From: a virus
Direction: 5' to 3' (one strand)
IMG/VR virus record: IMGVR_UViG_3300010392_000219
Coordinates: 1-29,521 of that record
DNA: 29,521 nucleotides
Shown here: positions 1 through 29,521 of the stretch, piece by piece
Layout: the number at the start of each line of letters is the position of its first letter
Numbering within the stretch: position 1 is the first letter of the stretch
Program-made: the position numbers and the translations under genes
Notes under the pieces: generated by a model
What the model was told of the DNA's origin: nothing
Databases searched by the model: none
What the model saw: only the letters and a program-made list of their open reading frames with translations

Positions 1-57
1 ATAAAAAACTGGTTCCCCTGTTTCTTGAACATACTTTAACGCACTAAAAAAATCCAT
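1..57 (-). CDS. 5' part of the 58-aa hypothetical gene, duplicated at the contig end
   Basis: These are the first 19 codons of the minus-strand gene that is complete at 29275-29451. It appears broken here only because the contig starts inside it. The ATG (reverse of 55-57) follows the phage's recurring AAGGTGTGAAAATG translation-start box, which also contains the stop codon of the upstream gene (60-62). On the circular map it is one intact gene, not a pseudogene. Confidence 0.85.
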   Translation of the reverse strand, partial: MDFFSALKYVQETGEPVFY

Positions 58-127
58 TTTCACACCTTCTTTTCTTCCAATCTCTCAAAGTTATAAAAAA
101 CGGCATTTTGAGAGATCGTTGTTATAT
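1..127. repeat. 127-bp terminal direct repeat (circular contig overlap)
   Basis: Bases 1-127 are identical to 29395-29521. The repeat is exactly 127 bases, a common largest k-mer of short-read assemblers, and it cuts through coding sequence in both copies. It is best read as the overlap left when a circular or circularly permuted genome was assembled. The unit genome is then 29,394 bp. A biological terminal repeat is possible but less likely. Confidence 0.95.
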
Positions 128-1754: not shown

Positions 1755-1883
1755 TTACTGTTTTTCAAACTTCTTACGCTCTAATTCTTTTTTTATCTTC
1801 TTAGTTGTACAATTCTCACAAAGTCCATCTTGAAGCTTTGAGAAGTAGTAATTACATGCTTTGCATTTATGGAGTATTATCAT
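1755..1883 (-). CDS. Small zinc-ribbon protein (42 aa)
   Basis: The last gene of a run of four overlapping micro-genes. Its ATG overlaps the upstream stop by 4 bases (ATGA), so the reading frame is well anchored. Two CxxC pairs (C7/C10 and C22/C25) make a minimal zinc ribbon, followed by a very basic helix (TKKIKKELERKKFEKQ). A small zinc protein with a basic tail could bind nucleic acid or a host protein; no family is recognised. The stop is 12 bases before the terminator stem at 1743-1717. Confidence 0.75.
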   Translation of the reverse strand: MIILHKCKACNYYFSKLQDGLCENCTTKKIKKELERKKFEKQ

Positions 1884-2023
1884 CTCTCAAACCTTTCATT
1901 TCTAGCTTTTACAAGCTTTTCAGCGTGTTTCTTGCACATTTTCACTTTTCCATCAGTATAAACATCACTATGCACAAATGATCTACAAAATGCGCAATAG
2001 TTAAGTTCTATTGTTTCTTTCAC
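1880..2023 (-). CDS. Small treble-clef/zinc-finger-like protein (47 aa)
   Basis: The likely start is GTG at 2021-2023. It overlaps the upstream stop as GTGA and has AAGGTGG 5 bases before it. A longer TTG start at 2062 lacks this support. C10, C13, C30 and H33 form a CxxC-x16-CxxH zinc-binding pattern (CAFCRSF ... MCKKHAEK), followed by a basic helical tail. It resembles the many small phage zinc-finger proteins of unknown function. The stop overlaps the next ATG by 4 bases, implying coupled translation. Confidence 0.75.
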   Translation of the reverse strand: MKETIELNYCAFCRSFVHSDVYTDGKVKMCKKHAEKLVKARNERFER

Positions 2024-2118
2024 ATCAACCACCTTAATATAAAACTCCACACAGCCCCACAAAAAGCAAGGCTTAGTATGAAGTATATGTTTATGTCGTA
2101 AGTTAGTATTTTAATCAT
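2020..2118 (-). CDS. Single-span membrane micro-protein (32 aa)
   Basis: A 32-codon frame locked between two 4-base overlaps: its ATG overlaps the upstream stop (ATGA) and its stop overlaps the next GTG start (GTGA). The protein is MIKILTYDINIYFILSLAFC followed by GAVWSFILRWLM. About 20 residues are hydrophobic enough for one membrane helix, with a basic R near the end. I do not recognise a family. An inner-membrane micro-protein expressed early could act in superinfection exclusion or in modulating a host envelope enzyme; that is speculation. Confidence 0.62.
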   Translation of the reverse strand: MIKILTYDINIYFILSLAFCGAVWSFILRWLM

Positions 2119-2243
2119 TGTTCAAACTGCCTTTTAAGAGTATCTTTTATTTGCCTATCCATCGGTTTAAATCTGCCTTTCAAAATTTCTTCAAGATAGT
2201 TTTTGTATTTACGATCATAATTAGGGAATAAATTTTCTAACAT
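2115..2243 (-). CDS. Hypothetical small basic protein (42 aa)
   Basis: The first gene of the overlapping micro-gene cluster. The ATG (reverse of 2241-2243) is preceded by the phage's recurring GGAAGGTGTGAAAATG start box, strong evidence that it is translated. The protein (starts MLENLFPNYDRKYKNYLEEI) is charged and predicted helical with a basic C-terminal half. No family is recognised. Its stop overlaps the ATG of the membrane micro-protein. Confidence 0.72.
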   Translation of the reverse strand: MLENLFPNYDRKYKNYLEEILKGRFKPMDRQIKDTLKRQFEQ

Positions 2244-2332
2244 TTTCACACCTTCCTGTTAAGTTTTTGTTCAAGTTCTAAATGCTTAACGACATAAAGA
2301 ACTTAAAAGTTAATAGTTTTGTTAAAGTTTTT
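2244..2332. other. Intergenic gap with inverted repeat
   Basis: An 89-base gap between the PP-loop gene and the micro-gene cluster. AAGTTCT (2273-2279) and AGAACTT (2298-2304) form a 7-bp inverted repeat with an 18-base loop and no adjoining T-run, so it is not a clear terminator. It could be an operator or an RNA hairpin in the leader of the cluster. No convincing promoter is visible. Confidence 0.4.
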
Positions 2333-3130
2333 TTATAAATTTGGGTATCTTTTCCCTTCAGCGAAATCAACTAATGATAACTGACATTGACAAGCCTTGT
2401 CTGGTTTATCGCTCCAATTACTTTCGCTTTTGAATCTTTCCTCAAGATCTGAAAGTTTATCGTTTATTTTCCATGTTGGATTTTGTACATTTTCCATATT
2501 TAAAAGTTTATTTTCAATATCTTTCATATATTGCCAAGTTTTATTATAATGTTTATATAGTACGTAAAATGCTCTTAAACTTTGATATGGGCAAATAGAA
2601 CAGCCAGTTCTAGAGAAATAATCATAAAGAGGGTTTATCATGTCTATATCTTCTAAATGATAAGAAACTTCATACTCACAATATACTTTATTAATAAGAG
2701 GAAAGATTTGTTTTTCATCTTTTACTTGAGATCTTCTTTTTTCTGAAAAAGTATAGCCTATATACAGTTTATAATCTTTTATATCATTCTCTTTTAGCCA
2801 TTTCTCAAAAGGCTTAACTTTACTTTCTCTCTTCCAAAAACAAGGTAAAGTTATCATAGGTAGGCCACGTATAAAACCTTCTTTTTTACCTTTTGAAATT
2901 TTGCCAAAAACCCAACTTTCAAAAGTAGTTTCAGGTTTTAAATATGTTATTTTCTTTCCATACTTTTTTTGTATGTAATTATCGAATTTTTCAAGATAAC
3001 TATACATCTCTTGAAATTCAAAAGTTGTATCACAAAAAATAATATAATCTACTGGATCTCCATCTCTTAAAAGTAAATCAACCATCGCAGTACTATCTTG
3101 CCCGCCACTCAACATCGCTATATATTTCAT
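2333..3130 (-). CDS. PP-loop ATPase, PAPS-reductase-like, with Cys cluster
   Basis: A 265-aa protein of the adenine-nucleotide alpha-hydrolase (PP-loop) superfamily. The SGGQDST loop (residues 8-14) binds ATP pyrophosphate, and FCDTTFEF (32-39) matches the 'DTGxxFPET' strand of PAPS reductases. Next come PCFWKRESKVKPFEKWL around 96-112 and IGYTFSEKRR (124-133). Cysteines C97, C177, C180 (TGCSICPYQS) and C247/C249 could hold an iron-sulfur cluster, as in DndC-type and several phage PP-loop proteins. Cellular members reduce activated sulfate or transfer sulfur. Phage members have been linked by others to DNA or tRNA modification, but no partner for phosphorothioation is visible here. It has its own AAAGGTGTAAAAATG start box. 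Confidence 0.8.
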   Translation of the reverse strand: MKYIAMLSGGQDSTAMVDLLLRDGDPVDYIIFCDTTFEFQEMYSYLEKFDNYIQKKYGKKITYLKPETTFESWVFGKISKGKKEGFIRGLPMITLPCFWKRESKVKPFEKWLKENDIKDYKLYIGYTFSEKRRSQVKDEKQIFPLINKVYCEYEVSYHLEDIDMINPLYDYFSRTGCSICPYQSLRAFYVLYKHYNKTWQYMKDIENKLLNMENVQNPTWKINDKLSDLEERFKSESNWSDKPDKACQCQLSLVDFAEGKRYPNL

Positions 3131-3177
3131 TTTTACACCTTTCTTTTAAGTTTTTTCAGTTGTAAAGTTTTTCTTTA

Positions 3178-3660
3178 CTACTCACTTTTATTTTTTCTTA
3201 TGTCAAGAATCCCGCAAATTTTTCCATCGTTTAAATTTTCTTGTGTTAAAGTTGCTTTGCCGTATTTTTCATAGTCTTTTTGGCTCATTTTACGGTTTTT
3301 TTCTTTCCTTTTCTTTTTTTGTATCTCACTATTTACTTTTATAAGACACTGCTTACATCTTCCCTCAAATTGCCCTCTTTTATTCAAGTAAAACTCGCTT
3401 GTAGGCTTTATCTTATTACATCGAGAGCATCTTTTTTCTTTTAGATCACGATTTTTAACTATCTCGCTTTTAGTGTATTTTCTTTTTCCTTCTAGCTTTG
3501 GAAGTTTTTTTACTTTTACAGGACTTTCTACACCACGACAAACAGGGCAAGGATTTGTAAAGCTTACGTTTTCCAGGCACTCGCAACAAAATTGCTCTCT
3601 ATATCTTAAATCTTCACCATTGTAACGCTTATAAATTTTTTTATCTATTTTTTCGCACAT
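3178..3660 (-). CDS. Two-zinc-ribbon basic protein
   Basis: A 160-aa, strongly basic protein with two separate four-cysteine zinc modules. One is C25/C28 with C38/C41; the other is C78/C81 with C102/C105 (RCSRCNKIKPTSEFY ... GRCKQC). The second module is the zinc knuckle commonly seen at the N-terminus of phage HNH endonucleases, but no HNH nuclease motif follows. The C-terminal third is Lys-rich. It is likely a nucleic-acid-binding protein, perhaps a degenerate or truncated HNH relative. The start ATG overlaps the stop of the DUF1064 gene (TAATG), so translation is coupled. Confidence 0.7.
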   Translation of the reverse strand: MCEKIDKKIYKRYNGEDLRYREQFCCECLENVSFTNPCPVCRGVESPVKVKKLPKLEGKRKYTKSEIVKNRDLKEKRCSRCNKIKPTSEFYLNKRGQFEGRCKQCLIKVNSEIQKKKRKEKNRKMSQKDYEKYGKATLTQENLNDGKICGILDIRKNKSE

Positions 3661-4031
3661 TATTTACCTCTTGACATATAAAAAATGCAGTCTGGATACT
3701 TATCATCAAAAGCACCATCAGAAATTAGTTTTAATAACATTTTTTTCTTGATCTTAAAAGCTTGTGTTTCAAAGCCCTTAAAATCTTCTATAATCCATTT
3801 ATTACAACGATTGTCATAATAAACAAAATCGGCTTTATATGTTATCGCTCTTATTTTCTTTTTTGTTTCTCTATCAACAAAACCATCTTGAATAGTAAAA
3901 GAAACCTGTTTTTCAAGTTTTGAAATAATTGCATTATCTTCTGCAAGCTGTAACTCTAAAAAACGTCTATGTTCCCCGATAGAGTCAAAAGTACCTTGTT
4001 TTGTTTTTACTTTCTTGTTTTTATATTTCAT
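3660..4031 (-). CDS. DUF1064 nuclease-fold protein (Holliday-junction resolvase-like)
   Basis: A 123-aa protein with the DUF1064 layout: KYKNKKVKTKQGTFDSIGEHRRFLEL at the N-terminus, then YKADFVYYD and WIIEDFKGF. E20, D68, E82/D83 and K85 fit the catalytic E...D...(E/D)xK of PD-(D/E)XK nucleases. Family members in lactococcal phages act as Holliday-junction resolvases or structure-specific endonucleases, so the likely role is debranching replicating or recombining phage DNA before packaging, alongside ERF and SSB. It overlaps the upstream gene by 11 bases. No signal or membrane segment is present. Confidence 0.8.
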   Translation of the reverse strand: MKYKNKKVKTKQGTFDSIGEHRRFLELQLAEDNAIISKLEKQVSFTIQDGFVDRETKKKIRAITYKADFVYYDNRCNKWIIEDFKGFETQAFKIKKKMLLKLISDGAFDDKYPDCIFYMSRGK

Positions 4032-4530
4032 CGTTTAACCTTTTTAATAAACTGCTTTTTAATACATTAGAATAGCCTATTTTCTTAGCTATTCTTATCA
4101 TAAATTTAGACAGTATTCTTAATCCTTCAATAGAACAAAAACTCTTTTCATTTTCTGATAAATGATGTTCCAGGTCAAAAGCTCCAAAAGAACCATAGAA
4201 GTATTTGTTTAACCATGCTTGAAACTCTAACTTTAGATCATTCTTACAGTCTGCAAGTACAATAGACTGCATCTCACGATCTTCTTTCGTCTTACAATAC
4301 ATCAAACGATACTCATTAAATAACTTGTGATATTCAAGCAATCTAATAAATTCAACAATACTATTTCCATCTTCTTTGTCAATCTCACTATAAATAACTC
4401 CCACCTTTTCATATTCAAGATAGTCATATAAGAAGCATGAGATTGTATCTAAATCGATTGGCACTTTTTTTCCATCACCAGTCGGCATCATGCGAACGCC
4501 TGACTTTAAATCTTTTAGTGAGTTTCTCAT
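4021..4530 (-). CDS. Hypothetical protein (169 aa)
   Basis: The preferred start is the ATG at 4530. It overlaps the upstream stop as ATGA and has AGGTGG seven bases upstream; an in-frame GTG at 4539 lacks spacing for this site. The protein is mixed and mostly helical (DTISCFLYDYLEYEKVG, EFQAWLNKYFYGSFGAFDLE, ILSKFMIRIAKKIGY) without motifs I can assign. It lies between a Cys-rich protein and the DUF1064 nuclease in the first leftward operon, so it is an early gene. Conserved W/F/Y and His content suggests a folded protein rather than a shadow frame. Function is unknown. Confidence 0.75.
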   Translation of the reverse strand: MRNSLKDLKSGVRMMPTGDGKKVPIDLDTISCFLYDYLEYEKVGVIYSEIDKEDGNSIVEFIRLLEYHKLFNEYRLMYCKTKEDREMQSIVLADCKNDLKLEFQAWLNKYFYGSFGAFDLEHHLSENEKSFCSIEGLRILSKFMIRIAKKIGYSNVLKSSLLKRLNDEI

Positions 4531-4724
4531 TTTTCCCACCTATCGCAATCAAAAATACCCTCTGGACTAGCAAAACAGTTTTCTTTGTTATCTGGATCAG
4601 AGCAAACTTTCCCTGTAAACCACTCGCATGATTTACAGTTCTCTTTTGCGTATAGATAATTTACCTTTTCGGATACATGATCTATTTTTTGTTGTAAGTT
4701 TTTTATGTATTCTAGTATTTCCAT
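4527..4724 (-). CDS. Small Cys-rich protein, first gene of the leftward operon (65 aa)
   Basis: The ATG at 4724 follows the AGAAAGGTGTGAAAATG box at ideal spacing; an in-frame GTG two codons earlier is too close to it. The N-terminal third is a helix or coiled coil (MEILEYIKNLQQKIDHVSEK). The rest carries C30, C33, C41, C50 and C60 in the order CxxCxW...C...C...CDRW, a common pattern in short phage zinc proteins of unknown role. As the promoter-proximal early-left gene it should be made first after infection. The stop overlaps the next ATG by four bases. Confidence 0.78.
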   Translation of the reverse strand: MEILEYIKNLQQKIDHVSEKVNYLYAKENCKSCEWFTGKVCSDPDNKENCFASPEGIFDCDRWEK

Positions 4725-4752
4725 TTTCACACCTTTCTAAACAATTAATACC
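4725..4752 (-). promoter_or_regulatory. Shared leader/ribosome-binding box, copy 2
   Basis: This is the 28-base block identical to 1613-1640 (which has one additional T next to its ATG). It contains the AGAAAGGTGTGAAA ribosome-binding box immediately before the ATG at 4724. Shorter versions of the box precede the starts at 57/29451, 2243 and 3130, and, with one mismatch, the plus-strand gene at 7565. Confidence 0.7.
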
Positions 4753-4766
4753 TTATTACGTTTTTT

Positions 4767-4796
4767 ATCTTACTACTTTTATAAATGATACGTCAA
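4767..4796 (-). promoter_or_regulatory. Leftward early promoter
   Basis: On the minus strand, TTGACG (4791-4796) lies 18 bp from TAAGAT (4767-4772), upstream of the first leftward gene. The spacer holds a small palindrome TTTATAAA (4778-4785). It is divergent from the cro promoter. Confidence 0.7.
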
Positions 4797-4801
4797 GAAA
4801 A

Positions 4802-4820
4802 AATAAAAATAATTTTTATT
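4802..4820. promoter_or_regulatory. Candidate operator between divergent promoters
   Basis: AATAAAAAT and ATTTTTATT form a perfect 9-bp inverted repeat around one central base, lying exactly between the two divergent -35 boxes. It is AT-only, so chance is a real alternative. Its placement fits a site controlling both promoters. Confidence 0.45.
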
Positions 4821-4832
4821 GGCCGTTAAATG

Positions 4833-4861
4833 TTGACTTTATGTATTAATAAAGTTAATAT
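4833..4861 (+). promoter_or_regulatory. Rightward early promoter with operator
   Basis: TTGACT (4833-4838) is followed after 17 bp by TAATAT (4856-4861), close to the sigma-70 consensus. Between the boxes lies ACTTTAT-6 bp-ATAAAGT (4836-4855), a perfect 7-bp inverted repeat. It is the expected kind of site for the Cro-like protein encoded 26 bases downstream. Confidence 0.78.
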
Positions 4862-4880
4862 ATGTCTGAAAGGAGTTAAT

Positions 4881-5075
4881 ATGACTAGATTTGAAGAGTT
4901 TTTAGAAAGCAAGGCGATAATGAAATCAAAGCTTGCAAAACAGTTAGGTTTAAGTAATGTAACGATAATTAATCATGCAAGAGGGAAAACAGAGATATCA
5001 AGAGATACAGCTAAAAAGTACGCTGATTTCTTTGGAATGTCTCTTAAAGAGTTTATGAATAGATTTGTATTGTGA
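4881..5075 (+). CDS. Cro/XRE-family helix-turn-helix repressor
   Basis: A 64-aa single-domain DNA-binding protein. MKSKLAKQLGLSNVTIINHARG is the helix-turn-helix: LAKQLGLS as helix 2 and the turn, VTIINHARG as the recognition helix. It is followed by the third helix DTAKKYADFFGMSLKEF, typical of XRE/Cro proteins. The ATG at 4881 has AAGGAG 6 bases upstream; a longer frame from 4830 overlaps the promoter and is not credible. It is the first gene rightward and probably represses its own promoter and the divergent one. No C-terminal dimerisation or cleavage domain is present, so it is Cro-like rather than CI-like. Confidence 0.88.
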   Translation: MTRFEEFLESKAIMKSKLAKQLGLSNVTIINHARGKTEISRDTAKKYADFFGMSLKEFMNRFVL

Positions 5076-5082
5076 GGTTGAG

Positions 5083-5379
5083 ATGATTTTAGATATTAAT
5101 GAGATTATGAAAGAAATTGAAGAAAACGAAAAAAAGTTTTTTACTTGTAAATGTTGTGGTTTAGAAAAAAATGAAAATAACAGATCACATCTTTATTATT
5201 GGGTAGGTGATTCAAGGGCGTTAGATTCTTGCATTTGTTCAAAATGTAGGGAATTGCTTAATGGTGGTTGGTTGAACTTAGAAGATTATGAGTTATCATA
5301 TTGTTTTCAAGCTATTAAGAACGGAACTATAAAAAAACCAGATGATTATCCTAAATTTATTAAAAAATTAAGAGGTTAG
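5083..5379 (+). CDS. Zinc-ribbon protein (98 aa)
   Basis: The start is ATG at 5083, seven bases after the cro stop, with GAGGTTGAG as ribosome-binding site. C22/C25 (TCKCCGLEKNENN) and C52/C55 (CICSKCRELL) form a zinc ribbon, with extra Cys at 24 and 50. The C-terminal part is helical (LEDYELSYCFQAIKNG). It lies between cro and the replication initiator, in the position where phages often carry small regulators, but no family is recognised. Confidence 0.75.
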   Translation: MILDINEIMKEIEENEKKFFTCKCCGLEKNENNRSHLYYWVGDSRALDSCICSKCRELLNGGWLNLEDYELSYCFQAIKNGTIKKPDDYPKFIKKLRG

Positions 5380-5381
5380 TT

Positions 5382-6182
5382 ATGTCAAAAGATGGATATA
5401 TTTGTTTATTTAGAAAACTACAAGACAATTTTCTTTGGAAAGAAAAAAGAGTTTTTTCAAGGCTTGAGGCTTGGATAGATATTCTTTTTGCAGTTAGATT
5501 TTCAGAAATACCAGAAGAAACTATGATTAAAGATAAAGTTTTTTTAGTTAAACAAGGTGAGTCTATAAAATCTTTAGACACGTGGGCAAATAGATGGAAT
5601 TGGAATAAAAGCCGAACAAGAAGGTTTTTAGAGTTGTTAAAAAAACGAAACATGATTGAAACAATAGGCGAACAAAAAACGACACACCTAAGGGTTATTA
5701 ACTATGCGTATTACGTTGATTTAGTGAAACAAAAACGAAACAAACTTGAAACAAATTTGAAACAAAAACGAAACAAACTTGAAACAAATTTGACACCAGA
5801 AGAAGAAAGAAATAAAGAAATAAAGAAAAATAATATATATAAAAAAGAAAACGAAGCTCTTTATGTGTTTGAAAAATATTGTGAATTGTTTGATAGTAGA
5901 AACATGACTTATCACAATAAAACTCAATCTATAAAAAACATTAAAAAACTTTTGAAGGATAACGACAAAGATCAGCTTGTCCAGTATGCGAAAAATTGTT
6001 TATCTGAAAAAGGTAATACAGAATATTGTTACGCTTGTTCGAACTTCTACGGAAGAGCAGAGCATTATAAAAATTTTGATAAAGAATGTTTGGGATCAAA
6101 TAATCTTTCTGATGATAATGATCATAATGATTGTGATGTTTCTGAACAGTTAGAAATAGTTAAAGCTTTGTTAGGTGGTTGA
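5382..6182 (+). CDS. Phage replication initiator (O/DnaD-like)
   Basis: A 266-aa initiator that should bind the phage origin and recruit the helicase. The N-terminal ~110 residues are the winged-helix domain typical of phage replisome organisers: RLEAWIDILFAVRF, QGESIKSLDTWANRWNW, SRTRRFLELLKKRNMIET, TTHLRVINYAYYVDL. Residues 116-137 are a duplicated 11-residue block (KQKRNKLETNL twice) encoded by the iterons at 5726-5791. A charged linker follows, then a C-terminal domain ending in the NFYGRAEHYKNF-type motif that many phage initiators use near helicase contacts. The next gene is the DnaB-type helicase, as in lambda O-P or DnaD-DnaB layouts. RBS AAGAGG precedes the ATG. Confidence 0.85.
   Translation: MSKDGYICLFRKLQDNFLWKEKRVFSRLEAWIDILFAVRFSEIPEETMIKDKVFLVKQGESIKSLDTWANRWNWNKSRTRRFLELLKKRNMIETIGEQKTTHLRVINYAYYVDLVKQKRNKLETNLKQKRNKLETNLTPEEERNKEIKKNNIYKKENEALYVFEKYCELFDSRNMTYHNKTQSIKNIKKLLKDNDKDQLVQYAKNCLSEKGNTEYCYACSNFYGRAEHYKNFDKECLGSNNLSDDNDHNDCDVSEQLEIVKALLGG
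5726..5791 (+). repeat. Six tandem 11-bp iterons (two perfect 33-bp units)
   Basis: Two perfect 33-bp copies (5726-5758, 5759-5791). Each divides into three 11-bp units, GAAACAAAAAC, GAAACAAACTT and GAAACAAATTT, giving six GAAACAAA boxes spaced by about one helical turn. The regular spacing at DNA level, inside the initiator gene, is the hallmark of initiator-binding iterons. Confidence 0.9.
5726..5852 (+). other. Candidate replication origin inside the initiator gene
   Basis: The six iterons are followed directly by an almost GC-free purine-rich tract (about 5803-5852, AAATAAAG repeats then TAATATATATAAAA), the usual arrangement of binding sites plus an easily melted element. The layout copies ori-lambda, which lies within gene O. 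The sequence shows the structure; origin function is inferred. Confidence 0.75.
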
Positions 6183-6183
6183 T

Positions 6184-7551
6184 ATGGAAGAAGATTTAAT
6201 ATGTTTAGACAGTGAGAGAGTTATTTTAAATCAAATAATAAACAGTTCTGATACTTTCTATAACAAAGAAAGAGAAATCCCTGAAAAACTCTTCTATTTA
6301 GATATTCATAAAAAAATATTGAAAGCTATTAGATTTCTTTATAAAAACAATAATAAAATTGATTATTTAATGATTGATTCTATTGTTTGTAATGAAGCAG
6401 ATTATATAAGAGTAGGGAAGAAGAATGGACTAAAGAAACTTGTTAATCTTGAGCCTAAAAATTTAGAAAATGCTATAGAAAGACTAAAAAACTTATCTAT
6501 AAAAAGGAAGCTTCATAGTTTAGGTAAAGAATTACTTCTTATATCAACAAAAAACACTTTTGAAGATGTTTATAATGTTGAGAAAGAGATAGCAGTATTA
6601 AATGACTTTACATTAAAAAATGAAACAAAAACGGAAACTTTGGAAGAGGTGGCAGAAAAAACATTTTTATCTATAAACAAAAAAGCAGAAGATTTTCGTA
6701 ATGGAATTATCCCTGACACAGGAGTAAAAACAGGGATCAAAGCTTTAGATGACGTTATTATAGGTATGAAACCAAGGCAATTAATAACACTTGGAGCAAG
6801 ACCATCAACGGGCAAAACAGCATTTTTAGGTCAACTACTTATAAACATTGGAATAAAGCAACAAAACGAAGTATTGTTTTTTAATTTTGAAATGGCAAAT
6901 ACTGAAATATCAGAGAGATTTTTTACAAACTTATCAAGCTGTAATTATTCAGAAATACAAAGAGGTAATTTTTATAAAAACTACGATAATTCAATATCAG
7001 AAGCTTTTACAAAACAATCAAGCAGTAAAATATTTCTTAATGACAAGCCTATGACGCCAGATCAAATGAGAATTGAAATAAAAAAGCTAAAATCAACTAA
7101 AGCGAAAAATCTAAAAGGTATATTTATTGATTATTTAGAAAAAATAAAAGTTCCTAAAAGTATGGAATCGAAAGGGCTTTATGAAAAAGTGTCTTACTTG
7201 TCAAATGAGATGAAATCAATAGCCGAAGAGTTTGATATTTTTGTTTTTTGTCTTGCTCAACTAAATAGAAAAGTTGATGAAAGAAGAAATAAAAGGCCGA
7301 TCTTATCAGATTTTAATAATTCTGGTGTCATAGAAGCTGATAGTCATTGTTCATTTATGTTAAGTTCAATGTTTAAGTATTACCCAAAAGTTAAAGAGCT
7401 TGAGAATATAATACTTTTAGATGTAGTTAAAAACAGAAGTGGTGAGCTTGCAAATATACTATTGCATTTTGATGGTTCTAGTATGAAAATTAGAGAAGCA
7501 ACAAAAACAGAGATAAAAATATATGCAGATGGTTTGCTAAAAATTAAATAG
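6184..7551 (+). CDS. DnaB-type replicative helicase
   Basis: A 455-aa hexameric 5'-3' helicase. The start is ATG at 6184, with AGGTGG five bases upstream and one base after the initiator stop; a GTG at 6175 is less suitable. The N-terminal ~100 residues are the helical DnaB-N domain (RVILNQIINSSDTF, KLFYLDIHKKILKAI), followed by a linker. The RecA-like core has Walker A GARPSTGKT (204-212), FEMANTE (H1a, about 235), Walker B GIFIDYL (about 312-318), AQLNRKVDERRNKRP (sensor/loop) and SGVIEADS. Length and order match DnaB/gp41-like helicases. No separate loader or primase is visible, so the phage probably uses host primase. Confidence 0.93.
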   Translation: MEEDLICLDSERVILNQIINSSDTFYNKEREIPEKLFYLDIHKKILKAIRFLYKNNNKIDYLMIDSIVCNEADYIRVGKKNGLKKLVNLEPKNLENAIERLKNLSIKRKLHSLGKELLLISTKNTFEDVYNVEKEIAVLNDFTLKNETKTETLEEVAEKTFLSINKKAEDFRNGIIPDTGVKTGIKALDDVIIGMKPRQLITLGARPSTGKTAFLGQLLINIGIKQQNEVLFFNFEMANTEISERFFTNLSSCNYSEIQRGNFYKNYDNSISEAFTKQSSSKIFLNDKPMTPDQMRIEIKKLKSTKAKNLKGIFIDYLEKIKVPKSMESKGLYEKVSYLSNEMKSIAEEFDIFVFCLAQLNRKVDERRNKRPILSDFNNSGVIEADSHCSFMLSSMFKYYPKVKELENIILLDVVKNRSGELANILLHFDGSSMKIREATKTEIKIYADGLLKIK

Positions 7552-21958: not shown

Positions 21959-22738
21959 ATGCCTGTAGTTATTGAAGAAAATACTAATTTTGAAAGACCG
22001 TTAAATCATGCAAGAATTTGTTATGATAATAAAGTTATAGATGCAACTGTAACAGCTACAAGCGAACAAACTAATTTTGAAGCTACAGCAGTACAAAATC
22101 CATTCACTTATGAATTTTGGAGACCGAATAGTCAAACAGCATCTTTAACTATTGCTTTTGATTCTAGTCAAGATATTGATTATATAGCTTTAGGAAGTCA
22201 AAACTTAAAAGGCGAAATAACTATAAAAAACGGTAGTACAGAAGTTATAACTTACGATGCTACAGGCGAAAACGAGAATATTCTATTTTTAATAAAAGAG
22301 CGATCTTTTGATTCTTTAGTTATAGAAATAGATTCTACTTCTTACGGAGAGTTAGCAGGCTCTTTAGGTGTTGTTTACGCAGGGAAAACTCTTGAAATGT
22401 ATCGTCCTTTTTTTGAAGGATTTACCCCTTTTTTAAGATCACGAACAACAAAAATACTTTCTAATAAATCAGAGTCAGGGCAATTTTTAGGAAAGTCAAT
22501 AATTAATCAAGGGTATAGAGCTAATTTTGAATGGGATAATTTACCTTCAAAATGGTATAACGAACACTTTGATGCTTTTGTTGAAAAAGCTTTGCAATAT
22601 CCTTTTTTTGTTGCTTGGAATCCTTTAAGATATCCTGATGATATTTTATATTGTGAAGTCAATCAAGATATTATCCCAACATTCACAGGCACAAAAGACT
22701 TTTTAAGAGTTGGATTTAGAGCAGAGGGTATAAAATGA
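21959..22738 (+). CDS. Distal tail-like protein
   Basis: A 259-aa beta-rich protein. The start is ATG 21959 (MPVVIEENTNFERPLNHARI) with AAAGG before it; a longer frame from 21926 lies in the preceding gene. It looks like a discoidin-like sandwich (SLTIAFDSSQDIDYIALGSQ) plus a second domain (RANFEWDNLPSKWYNEHFDA, QYPFFVAWNPLRYPDDILYC). Position before the hub gene, with ATGA overlap, suggests it is the tail-tip ring protein (Dit/gpM-gpL region). Carbohydrate binding by the sandwich is possible. Confidence 0.65.
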   Translation: MPVVIEENTNFERPLNHARICYDNKVIDATVTATSEQTNFEATAVQNPFTYEFWRPNSQTASLTIAFDSSQDIDYIALGSQNLKGEITIKNGSTEVITYDATGENENILFLIKERSFDSLVIEIDSTSYGELAGSLGVVYAGKTLEMYRPFFEGFTPFLRSRTTKILSNKSESGQFLGKSIINQGYRANFEWDNLPSKWYNEHFDAFVEKALQYPFFVAWNPLRYPDDILYCEVNQDIIPTFTGTKDFLRVGFRAEGIK

Positions 22739-24489
22739 GAAAACCTCTTGTTTTAGTTGAGATAGTGCAAGATTTTTGTAGTTTAACTTATGGTAGTTCG
22801 CCTTGTACTGCATCAGTTCCTAGTACAGGCACTACAAAATGCTTTAACACAAAGAAAACTTGTCAAGATCAAGATAATTATACAAAATCTAGTTTAAGTT
22901 TATTTTTCGGTAAATCAAACGCAGAAAACCCAAAAGATTTAAATATTATTCCATCAGTAACAAATATATCTTTTACACCTACTTTACTTAATCCTGCGAA
23001 TAGTTCTACAAATTCAAGCCCACTAGGTCAAAGATCAATGGTTACTGTATCTTTTCAAGATCATATACATTCTGATTTATTAGTAGATAAGTATAGAAGC
23101 GATAGAGACTATAATCCTTTAGAGTCTGGTACATTTTGGGCTAAATGGAAATCTAGAAACCCTTATTATAAAAATAGAGTTTTACGAGTTTACGAGGGGT
23201 TTGTAGGCGATTCAATAAACGATATGACTAAAAAAGAGTATTTTATTGACTCTGTTTCTGGCCCTTCTTCAACTGGTAGCGTTTCAATAGTAGCAAAAGA
23301 TATTCTAAAACTAGCGGACGATAAAACAGCTCAAGCTCCACCGATTACAGCAGGAGAATTAATCGTTGATATTGGAGAAGGCGACAGCGTTACAACATTA
23401 AGAATAACGAACGCAGTTGTCGCAGATTACGCATTTTTTAATACTGTTAGAATAGGAAAAGAACTTTTTACTTTTACAGGTACAAGCACAATATCAAGCA
23501 CAGAAATAAATCTAACAGGCGTTACAAGATCAACAGACGATACTATTGCAGAAGATCACAAAGCAGGCGACAGGGTACAAGCTTGTTTAAGATACACTAG
23601 CGAAAGAGTTGATAATATTTGTAAAGACTTGCTTTTGAACTATGGCAATATTGATTCAAGTTATATAGACTCAACAGAATGGAATACCGAGGGTTCAACA
23701 TGGCTAAATAATTTTACTGTATCTGCTGTAATTACAGAACCGTTAGGAGTAACAAAGCTTATCGGAGAGCTTACAGAACAGTTTTTATTTTATATTTGGT
23801 GGAATGAAAAAGACCAAAAAATAAAAATGGAAGCGATAAAGCCAGTTCCAGATGGAGAAGTTAATTTATTATCAGATGATTATTCAATAATAGAAAACTC
23901 TGTTTCATTGAAAGACGATAATAATAATAGGTTTTCTCAAATCTGGGTTTTTTACTCTCAAAAGCTTGTTACTGAAAAAATCGACGAAGAAAGCAACTAT
24001 ACAAAAGTTTCTATTCGTGCAGATTTAGCAGCAGAAAGCGACGACGAATACCAAGAGCAAAAGATTAAAAAAATATATTCTCGGTGGGTAGGTACAGAAT
24101 CGCAAGCGCAAAATATAACGGCTAGAATGTTATCAAGATTTAGAGAGACACAAAAAACTATTCAATTTGATGTAGACGCAAAAGAATCTGATTTATGGAC
24201 AGGTGGAATCGTAGATATAAAACATCGAAATTATGTTGATTTTACAGGAGCAGAAAAAATCGCAAGATGGCAAATTATATCAGCTCAAGACGTAGAAACA
24301 TCACATAAGAAAAGAATTATGTTATCATTATATGAGTACGGAGCAGGAGATCGTTTTGGAGTCTGGACAGTTGACGCTATGACAGACTATGAAAACTCAA
24401 GCGAAGCTGAAAGGCAAACTAATAGTTATTGGTCAAACGATGAAGGCTTGATACCGTATGATGATTCGCTAGGTTACAATTGGATTTAA
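22735..24489 (+). CDS. Tail hub/tip protein with N-terminal four-Cys motif
   Basis: A 584-aa protein, by length and place the central tail-tip hub. The first 45 residues contain C15, C24, C36 and C43 (QDFCSLTYGSSPCTAS ... KCFNTKKTCQDQDNY), a motif recurring in tail proteins of environmental siphophages. It recalls lambda gpL, which binds an iron-sulfur cluster. The middle has hub-like beta domains (FIDSVSGPSSTGSVSIVAKD, GELIVDIGEGDSVTTLRI, VGTESQAQNITARMLSRFRE), and the C-terminus KKRIMLSLYEYG precedes an Asp/Ser-rich tail. It probably seals the tail and contacts the cell surface. ATGA overlap with the upstream gene. Confidence 0.75.
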   Translation: MRKPLVLVEIVQDFCSLTYGSSPCTASVPSTGTTKCFNTKKTCQDQDNYTKSSLSLFFGKSNAENPKDLNIIPSVTNISFTPTLLNPANSSTNSSPLGQRSMVTVSFQDHIHSDLLVDKYRSDRDYNPLESGTFWAKWKSRNPYYKNRVLRVYEGFVGDSINDMTKKEYFIDSVSGPSSTGSVSIVAKDILKLADDKTAQAPPITAGELIVDIGEGDSVTTLRITNAVVADYAFFNTVRIGKELFTFTGTSTISSTEINLTGVTRSTDDTIAEDHKAGDRVQACLRYTSERVDNICKDLLLNYGNIDSSYIDSTEWNTEGSTWLNNFTVSAVITEPLGVTKLIGELTEQFLFYIWWNEKDQKIKMEAIKPVPDGEVNLLSDDYSIIENSVSLKDDNNNRFSQIWVFYSQKLVTEKIDEESNYTKVSIRADLAAESDDEYQEQKIKKIYSRWVGTESQAQNITARMLSRFRETQKTIQFDVDAKESDLWTGGIVDIKHRNYVDFTGAEKIARWQIISAQDVETSHKKRIMLSLYEYGAGDRFGVWTVDAMTDYENSSEAERQTNSYWSNDEGLIPYDDSLGYNWI

Positions 24490-26882: not shown

Positions 26883-27197
26883 ATGGCTTTAGTGAAAAAA
26901 TTAGGTGAGGATTTCGGATATTCAATATCAAATGAAGATTCAAGCAAATTAAACGCTTTGACTACTGGAACTCTTTATATCAGAAAAAACTCAATTTCAG
27001 GCGATGTTGCTTTTACAAAAGCTTTTACTTTATCAGATGATAGAAGCAATATTTTTGTTAAAGTTTTACCAGATGAGGCTTTATTAAATTTAGAAGTAGC
27101 AAGATATAAAAGCATCATTAAAATAGATGTTGGTGGAACAGAAAGACAAATTTTTATAGAAGATCTTCAAATCATTGAAAATGGGATTCCTGCGTAA
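26883..27197 (+). CDS. Hypothetical beta-rich protein (104 aa)
   Basis: A 104-aa protein with alternating strands (TGTLYIRKNSISGDVAFTKA, NIFVKVLPDEALLNLEVARY, SIIKIDVGGTERQIFIEDLQ). It is probably a small structural tail protein, by place after the receptor-binding genes, but no family is recognised. GAAGG lies in the preceding gene's end just before the ATG. Confidence 0.7.
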   Translation: MALVKKLGEDFGYSISNEDSSKLNALTTGTLYIRKNSISGDVAFTKAFTLSDDRSNIFVKVLPDEALLNLEVARYKSIIKIDVGGTERQIFIEDLQIIENGIPA

Positions 27198-27220: not shown

Positions 27221-27910
27221 ATGTATTCAGATTTAGAAAGCCAACAAAACGGCTATAGAATAATTATTATAGAAGATGAAGAATCTCAAATCGAGATCTG
27301 GAAAAGAATTTTACAAGAAGTAACAAAAGACTTTCCTTCAATGTATGTAAGTCCATTCAAAGACGCAGAAACAGCATATAAAAGTATTCTTGAAGATAAT
27401 CATGTTTCAATGGTAATATCTGACTTGCATTTATCAGCTTCAGGAATGAACGGCTACGATCTTTACAAAGCTTTGAGAAGCAAAGGAAAAGAATTCCCGT
27501 TTGCAATTGTTTCAGGCGATAAAATAGCATTAAATCAAATAAAAGAAAGAAAGCTATTGACTATTGAAAAACCTATCTTAGACTTTATACCTTTAGCGCA
27601 AGAGATAAGCAGTATTATACAAAGCAACTTAGAAACTATTTTTAGGGGACACGTGAGCGACGAAATCAAACATATAAAATCTAGCTTAAAAGAAGTCAAA
27701 CACGAGCAAGAACATGCAAGAAAAATAACCGAAGAGTCTTTATCGTTAGCAAAGGAACTAAAAGAAGAACTACAAAGACACACTAAAAAAGAGGAAGAGT
27801 TTCAGAAACTTATAACTGATAAACTAGTTAATAAAAAAGAAGATGAAAAAAAGGATTCTTTATTAGTTGGAGCTGGAAAGTTTTTCAGGGTTTTTTTTTC
27901 GACAAAATAA
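27221..27910 (+). CDS. CheY-like response-regulator receiver protein with coiled-coil tail
   Basis: A 229-aa protein. Residues ~12-125 are a receiver domain with every key site: E18/D19 (IIIIEDEES) for Mg2+, D68 (VISDLHLSASGMNGYDLYKA) as the phospho-acceptor, S98 (AIVSGD) as the switch Ser/Thr, and K117-P118 (LTIEKPI). Residues ~150-205 are a Lys/Glu coiled coil and the end (DSLLVGAGKFFRVFFSTK) is amphipathic. No DNA-binding or enzymatic output domain is present. It lies between tail genes and the lysis promoter on the late strand, with A/T-rich codons like its neighbours. Receiver proteins are rare in phages; possible roles are a phospho-signal sink for a host kinase, interference with chemotaxis, or lysis timing. 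All of these are inference. Confidence 0.85.
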   Translation: MYSDLESQQNGYRIIIIEDEESQIEIWKRILQEVTKDFPSMYVSPFKDAETAYKSILEDNHVSMVISDLHLSASGMNGYDLYKALRSKGKEFPFAIVSGDKIALNQIKERKLLTIEKPILDFIPLAQEISSIIQSNLETIFRGHVSDEIKHIKSSLKEVKHEQEHARKITEESLSLAKELKEELQRHTKKEEEFQKLITDKLVNKKEDEKKDSLLVGAGKFFRVFFSTK

Positions 27911-27973: not shown

Positions 27974-28555
27974 ATGTTCAATGACTATGCAAAAAGTCTT
28001 TTTAATTTCCTAAAAAATGTTTCACCAGAATATTTCAGAAACTTTGAGTATATTATGGCTCAATGGTGCTATGAAACAGGTTATTTCAAGTCTGATTTAG
28101 CAACAAAGTATTTTAATCCAGCTGGTATGAAATGGCGACCAGAATTAAAAGAGGTTGCGACTTGCTCACCTGCTGATTATACAGATTGGGAAAATGAAAC
28201 CGATGCTTATGCAAAAGTAGATAATATTGTTTTTAGCCCTTATCTATATTTTAGATTTGTTCAACGTTGGCCGTACAAAGGCTATGAAGATTTTGCAGGC
28301 GATGGAATAGGTTTTATATCTCACTTGGCTTTTTGCGGTTGGTGCGGTTCTATCGATGGAGTTAATACAGATCATTTTATAAATGAAGAAGATAGAAAAA
28401 GAGCTATTGCTTTTAAGTATTTATCAAACATTAGAGAAGTTTATAATTCAAAAAAATTCACAAAGCTTTTAACTGATTTTTATAGGATATATATTGATGT
28501 TGCGTCAGTAAAAAGTATCACTATTGACGATTTACCGTTCACCTGTAGGGGGTAG
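27974..28555 (+). CDS. Endolysin, glucosaminidase/lysozyme-like
   Basis: A 193-aa peptidoglycan hydrolase candidate. IMAQWCYETGYFKSDLATKY followed by FNPAGMKWR matches the catalytic block of N-acetylglucosaminidases (A..iLESGwGkS.La...NpfGiK), with E34 as the likely acid. Downstream FAGDGIGFISHLAFCGWCG and the helical end agree with a muramidase-like fold. There is no signal peptide, so it depends on the holin encoded three bases later. The three Cys around W31-C32 and FCGWC are unusual and may form a disulfide. Confidence 0.77.
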   Translation: MFNDYAKSLFNFLKNVSPEYFRNFEYIMAQWCYETGYFKSDLATKYFNPAGMKWRPELKEVATCSPADYTDWENETDAYAKVDNIVFSPYLYFRFVQRWPYKGYEDFAGDGIGFISHLAFCGWCGSIDGVNTDHFINEEDRKRAIAFKYLSNIREVYNSKKFTKLLTDFYRIYIDVASVKSITIDDLPFTCRG

Positions 28556-28558
28556 AAA

Positions 28559-28990
28559 ATGGAAGAACAATTTTTAAGCATTATTCAAGTTATAGCAGGC
28601 ACAGTTTTAACTTTTCTTGCAGGGTTTATTACAAAGTTTATTAAGAAACAATCTGATCTTGTACATGAAAAGATTAAGAATGAAGTTTTAGGGCGTTTTT
28701 ATGCTCTTGTAGAAGATGCAATCATGCAAAGCTATCAAGTACATATTAAACCAGTGAAGGACGCTGTAAAAGATGGTAAACTTGATAAGAAAGATATAGA
28801 GCTTGCTAAAGTTCAAGCTAGACAATTTGCAGTTGATTCTATTAATAAGATTATTTCTGGACTACCAAAGTTTTTAAGATCAGAACTAGAAGGAAAAGCA
28901 AGCGATATTTTAGAGAGTAAAATCCAGAAAACAAAAGCAAAACAAGTTAATTTAATGATGCCAGATATAAAAAAAAAGGATTCTCAATAA
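28559..28990 (+). CDS. Holin (LLH/superfamily-6-like)
   Basis: A 143-aa protein with one N-terminal membrane helix (residues about 6-27, LSIIQVIAGTVLTFLAGFIT), a basic stop (KFIKKQ), then a long charged amphipathic region (KIKNEVLGRFYALVEDAIMQ, DAVKDGKLDKKDIELAKVQA). This matches LLH-type holins, which release or activate the endolysin. It follows the endolysin directly. The zero frame stops at 28988-28990, just after a run of nine A; see the -1-frame extension. Confidence 0.8.
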   Translation: MEEQFLSIIQVIAGTVLTFLAGFITKFIKKQSDLVHEKIKNEVLGRFYALVEDAIMQSYQVHIKPVKDAVKDGKLDKKDIELAKVQARQFAVDSINKIISGLPKFLRSELEGKASDILESKIQKTKAKQVNLMMPDIKKKDSQ

Positions 28991-29153: not shown

Positions 29154-29192
29154 AAAAAAGCCCCTCAAAAGTTCAAGGGGCTTTTCTTTTTA
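29154..29192. terminator. Bidirectional terminator between late and early arms
   Basis: AAAAGCCCCT (29156-29165) pairs with AGGGGCTTTT (29176-29185) over 10 bp with a 10-base loop. It is flanked by A-run on the left and T-run on the right, so it can stop both the late rightward and early leftward transcripts. On the minus strand it immediately follows the last early gene. Confidence 0.92.
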
Positions 29193-29282: not shown

Positions 29283-29451
29283 TTTCTTCTACTTCCTTTT
29301 TTGCCTTATAAAAACTTGTTTGCTTTAACATATCAACTGAATATTCAACTGCTTTATGCTCAAACTTTGTATTGTAAACTCCAATATCACCCATATAAAA
29401 AACTGGTTCCCCTGTTTCTTGAACATACTTTAACGCACTAAAAAAATCCAT
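29275..29451 (-). CDS. Hypothetical small protein (58 aa)
   Basis: The ATG at 29451 follows AAGGTGTGAAAATG, the phage's start box, which also contains the stop of the gene upstream on the circle. An in-frame GTG two codons earlier is too close to the box. The protein (MDFFSALKYVQETGEPVFYM) has a helix-then-strand opening and a charged helical end (KQTSFYKAKKEVEENE). No family is recognised. Its 5' end is duplicated at 1-57 by the contig overlap. Confidence 0.75.
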   Translation of the reverse strand: MDFFSALKYVQETGEPVFYMGDIGVYNTKFEHKAVEYSVDMLKQTSFYKAKKEVEENE

Positions 29452-29521
29452 TTTCACACCTTCTTTTCTTCCAATCTCTCAAAGTTATAAAAAACGGCAT
29501 TTTGAGAGATCGTTGTTATAT
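29395..29521. repeat. Second copy of the 127-bp terminal direct repeat
   Basis: This is the exact copy of bases 1-127, at an offset of 29,394. It holds the 5' end of the small minus-strand gene at 29275-29451 and the 3' end of the gene whose complete copy lies at 60-263. One copy should be trimmed for a circular map. Confidence 0.95.

Follow-up and report, generated by a model that had tools for sequence, protein, structure and literature searches.

Lysis time is a central trait of a phage, and its responsiveness to the condition of the host is known mainly from a few model phages. Genes for CheY-like and PhoB-like proteins are already known in phages (PMC7289586, PMC8228385). The locus described here raises the question of what a CheY-like receiver protein does in the late strand of a small siphovirus, directly before an endolysin gene. 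The stretch analysed, referred to as the window, is the whole 29,521 bases of the viral record IMGVR_UViG_3300010392_000219. Its two ends share an identical 127 bp, which makes it a complete circular genome and the receiver gene a gene of the phage.

The receiver protein and its gene

The capsid, portal, terminase and tail genes of the window follow the gene order of marine siphoviruses, among them Marinomonas phage P12026, whose large terminase is 47% and whose adhesin is about 36% identical to that of the window. The late strand runs from tail fibre genes through a 104-aa protein to the receiver, an endolysin candidate and a holin-like gene, with the following features:

1..127, no strand assigned: direct terminal repeat, identical to 29395-29521
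22735..24489, plus strand: tail adhesin (phrog_11439, E 5.8e-127), used as anchor for finding related phages
26883..27197, plus strand: ORF of the 104-aa protein, 23 bases upstream of the receiver gene
27221..27910, plus strand: receiver (REC) protein of 229 aa with ATG start (ORF, PF00072, residues, model, Foldseek)
27254..27580, plus strand: receiver domain, about residues 12-120, with E18/D19, D68, S98 and K117 (PF00072, residues, model)
27584..27868, plus strand: predicted continuous helix, residues 122-216 (AlphaFold2 model, heptad analysis)
27854..27907, plus strand: C-terminal tail DSLLVGAGKFFRVFFSTK, residues 212-229, a possible weak membrane-binding segment (low model confidence)
27974..28555, plus strand: endolysin candidate of 193 aa with a glucosaminidase domain (PF01832, E 1e-7, above cut-off)
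28559..28990, plus strand: holin-like protein of 143 aa (phrog_13712 holin, E 4.7e-4)
29154..29187, no strand assigned: terminator-like hairpin of 15 pairs, 3' of the late genes, scored on the minus strand in a scan whose total match count was not above chance

The ORF at 27221-27910 was confirmed as a real gene carrying a receiver domain, as had been proposed from the DNA alone: the 229-aa protein matched PF00072 with 34.6 bits (E 2.3e-8, curated cut-off 30.2), which is well beyond chance. Residues E18, D19, E20, D68, S98, K117 and P118 were all found at the positions given for them in the initial annotation or adjoining these, and the full receiver set of acidic pair (E18/D19), phospho-Asp (D68), Ser (S98) and Lys (K117) is present. 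AlphaFold2, supplied with an alignment that comprised 18 viral-contig receivers (17-26% identity), produced a (beta-alpha)5 fold with a pLDDT of 92-97 over the receiver domain, having strands at 12-17, 41-46, 62-68, 94-98 and 113-116 and helices at 21-37, 49-58, 78-87, 101-108 and 122-216; run on the single sequence it left the receiver domain unresolved. Foldseek comparison with the PDB returned the NtrX, FixJ and PhoP receivers (E 4e-7 to 6e-7) and also matched RssB, while among viral proteins it picked out histidine kinases and receivers that are already described, one of them being the V22 CheY-like protein (Alteromonas phage). The initial annotation had made its reading depend on such a fold, and both the model and Foldseek give a receiver.

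Directly after the receiver domain the alignment-based model has one continuous helix, residues 122-216, and then a disordered end. The C-terminal half of the protein is modelled as one helix with no winged-helix DNA-binding domain, in agreement with the earlier statement that no output domain is fused to the receiver. The coiled coil and amphipathic C-terminus proposed at the same time were borne out in part. The long helix is present in the model and its heptad pattern is moderate (in its best register, over residues 135-205, 52% of the a/d positions are hydrophobic), but the tail, whose last 18 residues are hydrophobic with a net charge of +2, has a hydrophobic moment of only 0.35, a moderate value, and segment 215-229 has a pLDDT below 50. 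Membrane binding by tail residues 212-229 is possible but weakly supported. Sequence and model support a predicted phosphorylation-competent receiver fold without a DNA-binding output domain; the long helix joined to a receiver in a small siphovirus, as modelled here, would be new.

Two profiles, phrog_731 and PHROG 5982, were initially taken for phage families with the same helix and were set aside. The phrog_731 profile is that of an OmpR-type regulator, scoring 234 bits on an OmpR-like protein of another locus (L101) as against 27-29 bits on the window receiver, so its match over the helix carries no weight.

The late-strand position 63 bases before an endolysin gene, also claimed initially, was confirmed, the next ORF at 27974 carrying a Glucosaminidase domain (PF01832). 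The endolysin promoter that had been placed inside this 63-base gap was not recovered: no sigma-70-like site was found there on the plus strand, and across the region such sites showed no excess (26 observed against 23.3 expected). The holin-like protein has an N-terminal membrane segment, where hydropathy peaks at 2.13 (residue 6), and after it a charged, helical stretch; the 104-aa protein had no Pfam, PHROG or NCBIfam match. The window proteins scanned included no histidine kinase, phosphotransfer protein or other two-component protein, which leaves the host as the source of any phosphodonor.

Two regions outside the late genes were also recorded. Tandem 11-base repeats of the CGAAACAAACT / TGAAACAAATT type at 5635-5790 lie inside ORF 5382-6182, the gene of a DnaD-like helicase loader, and look like replication-origin iterons inside an initiator gene, as in lambda. 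A PAPS-reductase-like gene (PF01507, phrog_424) at 2333-3130 on the minus strand is possibly auxiliary or DNA-modification-related.

Of the searches which the initial annotation had proposed for the 229-aa protein, that against profiles returned the PF00072 receiver and that against phage records no close relative. No close homologue was found by tblastn in 50,697 INPHARED phage records or by peptide-pattern scans of IMG/VR and GTDB genome contigs, and plasmid matches were ordinary weak receiver matches. The best cellular matches in about 700 sampled genomes of two phyla were ordinary receivers (25-33% identity, E 5e-7 to 4e-6 per genome). Relatives of the adhesin were found at 205 loci in viral contigs. 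A PF00072 receiver was found in 0 of 50 records of adhesin-related phages, many of which are fragments in which a single absence means little, yet none was positive. Other lysis genes lay downstream in five related phages that were inspected, and since related phages are without the receiver, lysis in this group does not depend on it. Because no close relative was found and none of the 50 related records has a receiver, the gene appears to be a lineage-specific addition, long diverged and with its active site kept. Relatives of the phage occur in Burkholderiales, Campylobacteraceae and others. A prophage-like locus in a Campylobacteraceae MAG from a low-GC host (L092, JAIRXG010000031.1) has relatives of both the adhesin (38%) and the terminase (38% over 202 aa) of the window, a hint, not proof, of the host group of the window phage.

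Receivers beside lysis genes in other phages

Other phage receivers were gathered by three IMG/VR scans with receiver consensus queries and from a phage collection. In Alteromonas phage V22, a myovirus, the gene order is papain-like amidase, helix protein, CheY-like ORF30, Rz-like spanin (phrog_4297, E 7e-6; overlapped by ORF30) and a protein with two membrane segments, and the schitovirus A5 has the same block of receiver, spanin and two-membrane-segment protein followed by an annotated endolysin. This block is common to phages of different morphotypes and has been read as a host-recognition module in which gp29, gp31 and gp32 were given no function (PMC10579305). The genes listed as hypothetical that adjoin the CheY-like gene span 6168-7039 in V22 (L128) and 4910-5805 in A5 (L167). 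In our comparison one of them matches Rz-like spanins (phrog_4297) and the next, with two membrane segments, resembles a holin. The spanin reading of gp31 and the holin-like reading of gp32 come from the present analysis, by which the published module may end in a lysis cassette.

The receiver of L115 (IMGVR_UViG_3300018080_000117) lies between an amidase and an Rz-like spanin, with no tail gene among the immediate neighbours scanned, and its relative L103 has a homologous spanin-type partner beside the receiver. In L107 and L116 a tail fibre gene is followed by the receiver, then by a small protein with a coil and a membrane segment, and then by a phage lysozyme; in L163 tail genes are followed by the receiver, a membrane/coil protein, a lipoprotein-like protein and an endolysin (phrog_315, E 2e-46); and in L152 an amidase is directly downstream. 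An endolysin is no further than about four genes from the receiver in L107, L116, L152 and L163. Membrane/helix partners without a lysis-profile match were present in L121, L123, L136, L146, L165 and L199, and in two cases receiver and membrane/helix parts are fused in one protein, as receiver-membrane segment-helix in L192 and as receiver-helix-membrane segment in L196. The recurrent neighbours are endolysins, Rz-like spanins and small membrane/helix proteins. Receivers thus recur in unrelated phages, either where a tail module ends or within a lysis cassette, but their association with lysis genes is suggested rather than established.

The catalytic set (acidic pair, phospho-Asp, Ser/Thr, Lys) is kept in 20 of 20 phage receivers compared, that of the window included, the acidic pair being partly selected by the search patterns and the other positions not. 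The initial annotation had named homologues in related phages lacking D68 or K117 as evidence that would count against it; no close homologue was found, and both residues are kept throughout these 20.

The strength of the association was assessed with an automated rule, a small neighbour within 60 bases having one terminal membrane segment and a charged helical remainder. Such a neighbour was found for 10 of 37 distinct stand-alone phage receivers versus 5 of 68 control genes from those receiver loci (p 0.008) and 13 of 451 control genes taken from around adhesins (p 1e-6). These p values are optimistic, since the rule was formulated only once the pattern had been noticed on inspection. In a fresh sample of ten only one receiver had such a neighbour and the enrichment was not replicated; pooled with this sample, the p value against same-locus controls was about 0.015. 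The signal had been weaker (17/37 versus 22/90, p 0.016) in an earlier, less refined adjacency test that relied on a crude gene caller. The window receiver does not have a neighbour of this kind, the endolysin being its immediate neighbour and the holin-like gene next but one. Tail genes are often followed by lysis genes, and small accessory genes gather in that same region, so that position alone may mislead; adjacency differs from function.

Several records were set aside or noted during this survey. Many INPHARED "phage" receivers came from host-like unannotated contigs or from records seemingly containing host DNA, among them contigs of Listeria phage LM 4-11-1 and Acinetobacter phage MD-2021a, and counts of phage response regulators are inflated by such records; these receivers were left out of the comparison. 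In Pseudomonas phage Komp_PAO1_1 (L097) an annotated minus-strand gene at 5989-6774 overlies a plus-strand bacterial-type receiver-HTH gene at 6040-6621; the annotated gene is likely a misannotation within a host-like insert. L154 carries at 1874-5411 two successive pairs of a receiver-like and a membrane/coil protein (234-241 aa), as if a unit made up of receiver and membrane-helix protein had been duplicated in tandem. The IMG/VR records L172, L174, L175 and L176, candidate phage contigs, each have at about 3986-4690 a gene for a receiver (228-233 aa) that is joined to two hydrophobic membrane segments. The receivers of L119, L123, L163 and L165 have a DSxxEE/ET motif after the phospho-Asp strand, a Lys without a following Pro and adjoining membrane/helix proteins, and apparently form a phage-only receiver type.

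A possible role in lysis and its alternatives

The best reading of the locus, which we hold tentatively and at somewhat less than even confidence, is that the protein is a phospho-receiver made late in infection, through which phosphodonors of the host influence the lysis apparatus. The late-expressed protein would be phosphorylated on D68 by host histidine kinases or by small phosphodonors such as acetyl phosphate, and this would alter how it dimerises or how far its long helix is exposed. Helix and hydrophobic, basic tail would then act on inner-membrane lysis proteins, the most likely partner being the holin-like protein encoded two genes downstream, and lysis would be delayed or allowed according to the state of the host sensors. 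What the analysis shows is a receiver sequence, a retained active site, a modelled receiver fold and long helix, and a position beside the endolysin and holin-like genes; that the protein is phosphorylated during infection, by which donor, that it binds a lysis protein in the membrane and that it alters lysis time are steps that we infer. The stand-alone receivers that recur beside lysis or membrane-helix genes, and the receiver fusions to such segments, lend support by comparison. A broader reading, which we consider doubtful, is that unrelated phages have repeatedly recruited phospho-receivers to the lysis apparatus, encoding them next to a membrane/helix lysis protein or as a fusion to helix and membrane segments, with host two-component signals setting lysis time and the window protein as a fused member. 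Some phages may let host sensors influence the time at which the cell bursts.

If lysis-cassette receivers act as switches, they would couple host signalling directly to the release of virus. The idea is testable, since V22 and A5, both in culture, already carry such a receiver gene. Their spanin- and holin-like neighbours suggest a role other than that of the published auxiliary host-recognition gene. No earlier report of phage receivers recurring beside lysis genes was found in the literature searched, which lay mainly outside subscription journals.

The main rival, itself rather unlikely in our judgement, is that the receiver serves as a decoy or phosphate sink which drains or blocks host histidine kinases and so damps a late stress, envelope or defence response of the host, its place among lysis genes being incidental. 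An intact active site without an output domain, and with no phage kinase detected, would suit this role, and there are precedents in the phage protein PIT4, which binds host histidine kinases (PMC10714779), and in the host kinase/regulator pair that controls CRISPR-Cas phage resistance in Marinomonas (PMC8523701). However, a sink should act early in the infection and would have no need of a 95-residue helix and tail, and the recurrent membrane/helix neighbours and fusions are left unexplained. It is less probable that the receiver is an accessory protein that travels with host-recognition genes and aids assembly or host adaptation with no part in lysis. The V22/A5 CheY-like gene does lie in a transferred block with tail fibre and chaperone genes, its authors describe a similar module in P24 and regard the gene as an auxiliary metabolic gene belonging to a module for host recognition (PMC10579305, PMC7289586), and the window receiver also comes after tail genes. 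Yet the genes right after the receiver in V22 and A5 are those of the Rz-like spanin and the two-membrane-segment protein, with the endolysin next in A5, and the L115 receiver has amidase and spanin, not tail genes, at its sides.

That the gene was recently acquired from a host and is under no lasting selection in the phage would fit the want of a close phage relative and the 0 of 50 related records, but the sampled cellular genomes hold no close relative either, and the protein has long diverged while keeping every active-site residue; we regard this as quite improbable. Least probable is mimicry of chemotaxis, with the receiver acting as CheY-phosphate on the flagellar switch or the chemotaxis kinase. 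The general similarity of the receiver to CheY structures in Foldseek speaks for it, but the best sequence and fold matches are NtrX, FixJ, PhoP and RssB-type receivers and the long helix is unlike CheY. Moreover, the position of the CheY switch tyrosine, Tyr106, holds no aromatic residue but a threonine (T114, three before K117), which makes a FliM-type output unlikely, and with it the rewiring of chemotaxis that the initial annotation had offered as one possible role.

Comparison with known systems

The window protein differs from CheY, a single domain of about 130 aa, in its 229 aa and its helix at 122-216, and from OmpR/PhoB-type regulators in being without a C-terminal winged-helix DNA-binding domain. 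Its best NCBIfam match was RssB, a response regulator and ClpXP adaptor, over residues 10-171 (the receiver and the start of the helix), although the 26.6 bits fall far below the family cut-off of 329 and the window protein has no C-terminal phosphatase-like domain. PIT4 of Pseudomonas phage LSL4 is likewise a phage protein acting at host two-component systems, but it is an early gene product that binds histidine kinase domains, and the abstract of its report (PMC10714779) mentions no receiver domain. The cyclic-phosphate-processing receiver-like domain cREC of jumbo phages (PMC7824862) is also a divergent phage receiver fold with a catalytic aspartate; it is linked to NAD/ADP-ribose enzymes, whereas the window receiver has tail, endolysin and holin-like genes as neighbours, with no enzyme of that kind found.

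V22 gp30 and A5 gp11 (PMC7289586, PMC10579305) resemble the window receiver in having no DNA-binding domain and in lying on the late strand after tail fibre genes, the window receiver also being placed between tail fibre and lysis-type genes. They differ in their length of 147-149 aa without a long helix, in directly adjoining a spanin gene where the window receiver adjoins an endolysin, and in sequence, the window receiver having no detectable homology to gp30 by tblastn in a collection containing V22 and A5. The L115 and L103 receivers share with it a place inside or beside a lysis cassette and the retained catalytic residues, but they are of 131-134 aa and their membrane/helix protein is separate, encoded by the next gene. 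The L192 and L196 fusions, although theirs are true membrane segments (hydropathy 1.8-2.1) and the window protein has only a weak hydrophobic tail, have in common with it a receiver followed by a helix and a hydrophobic segment in one protein.
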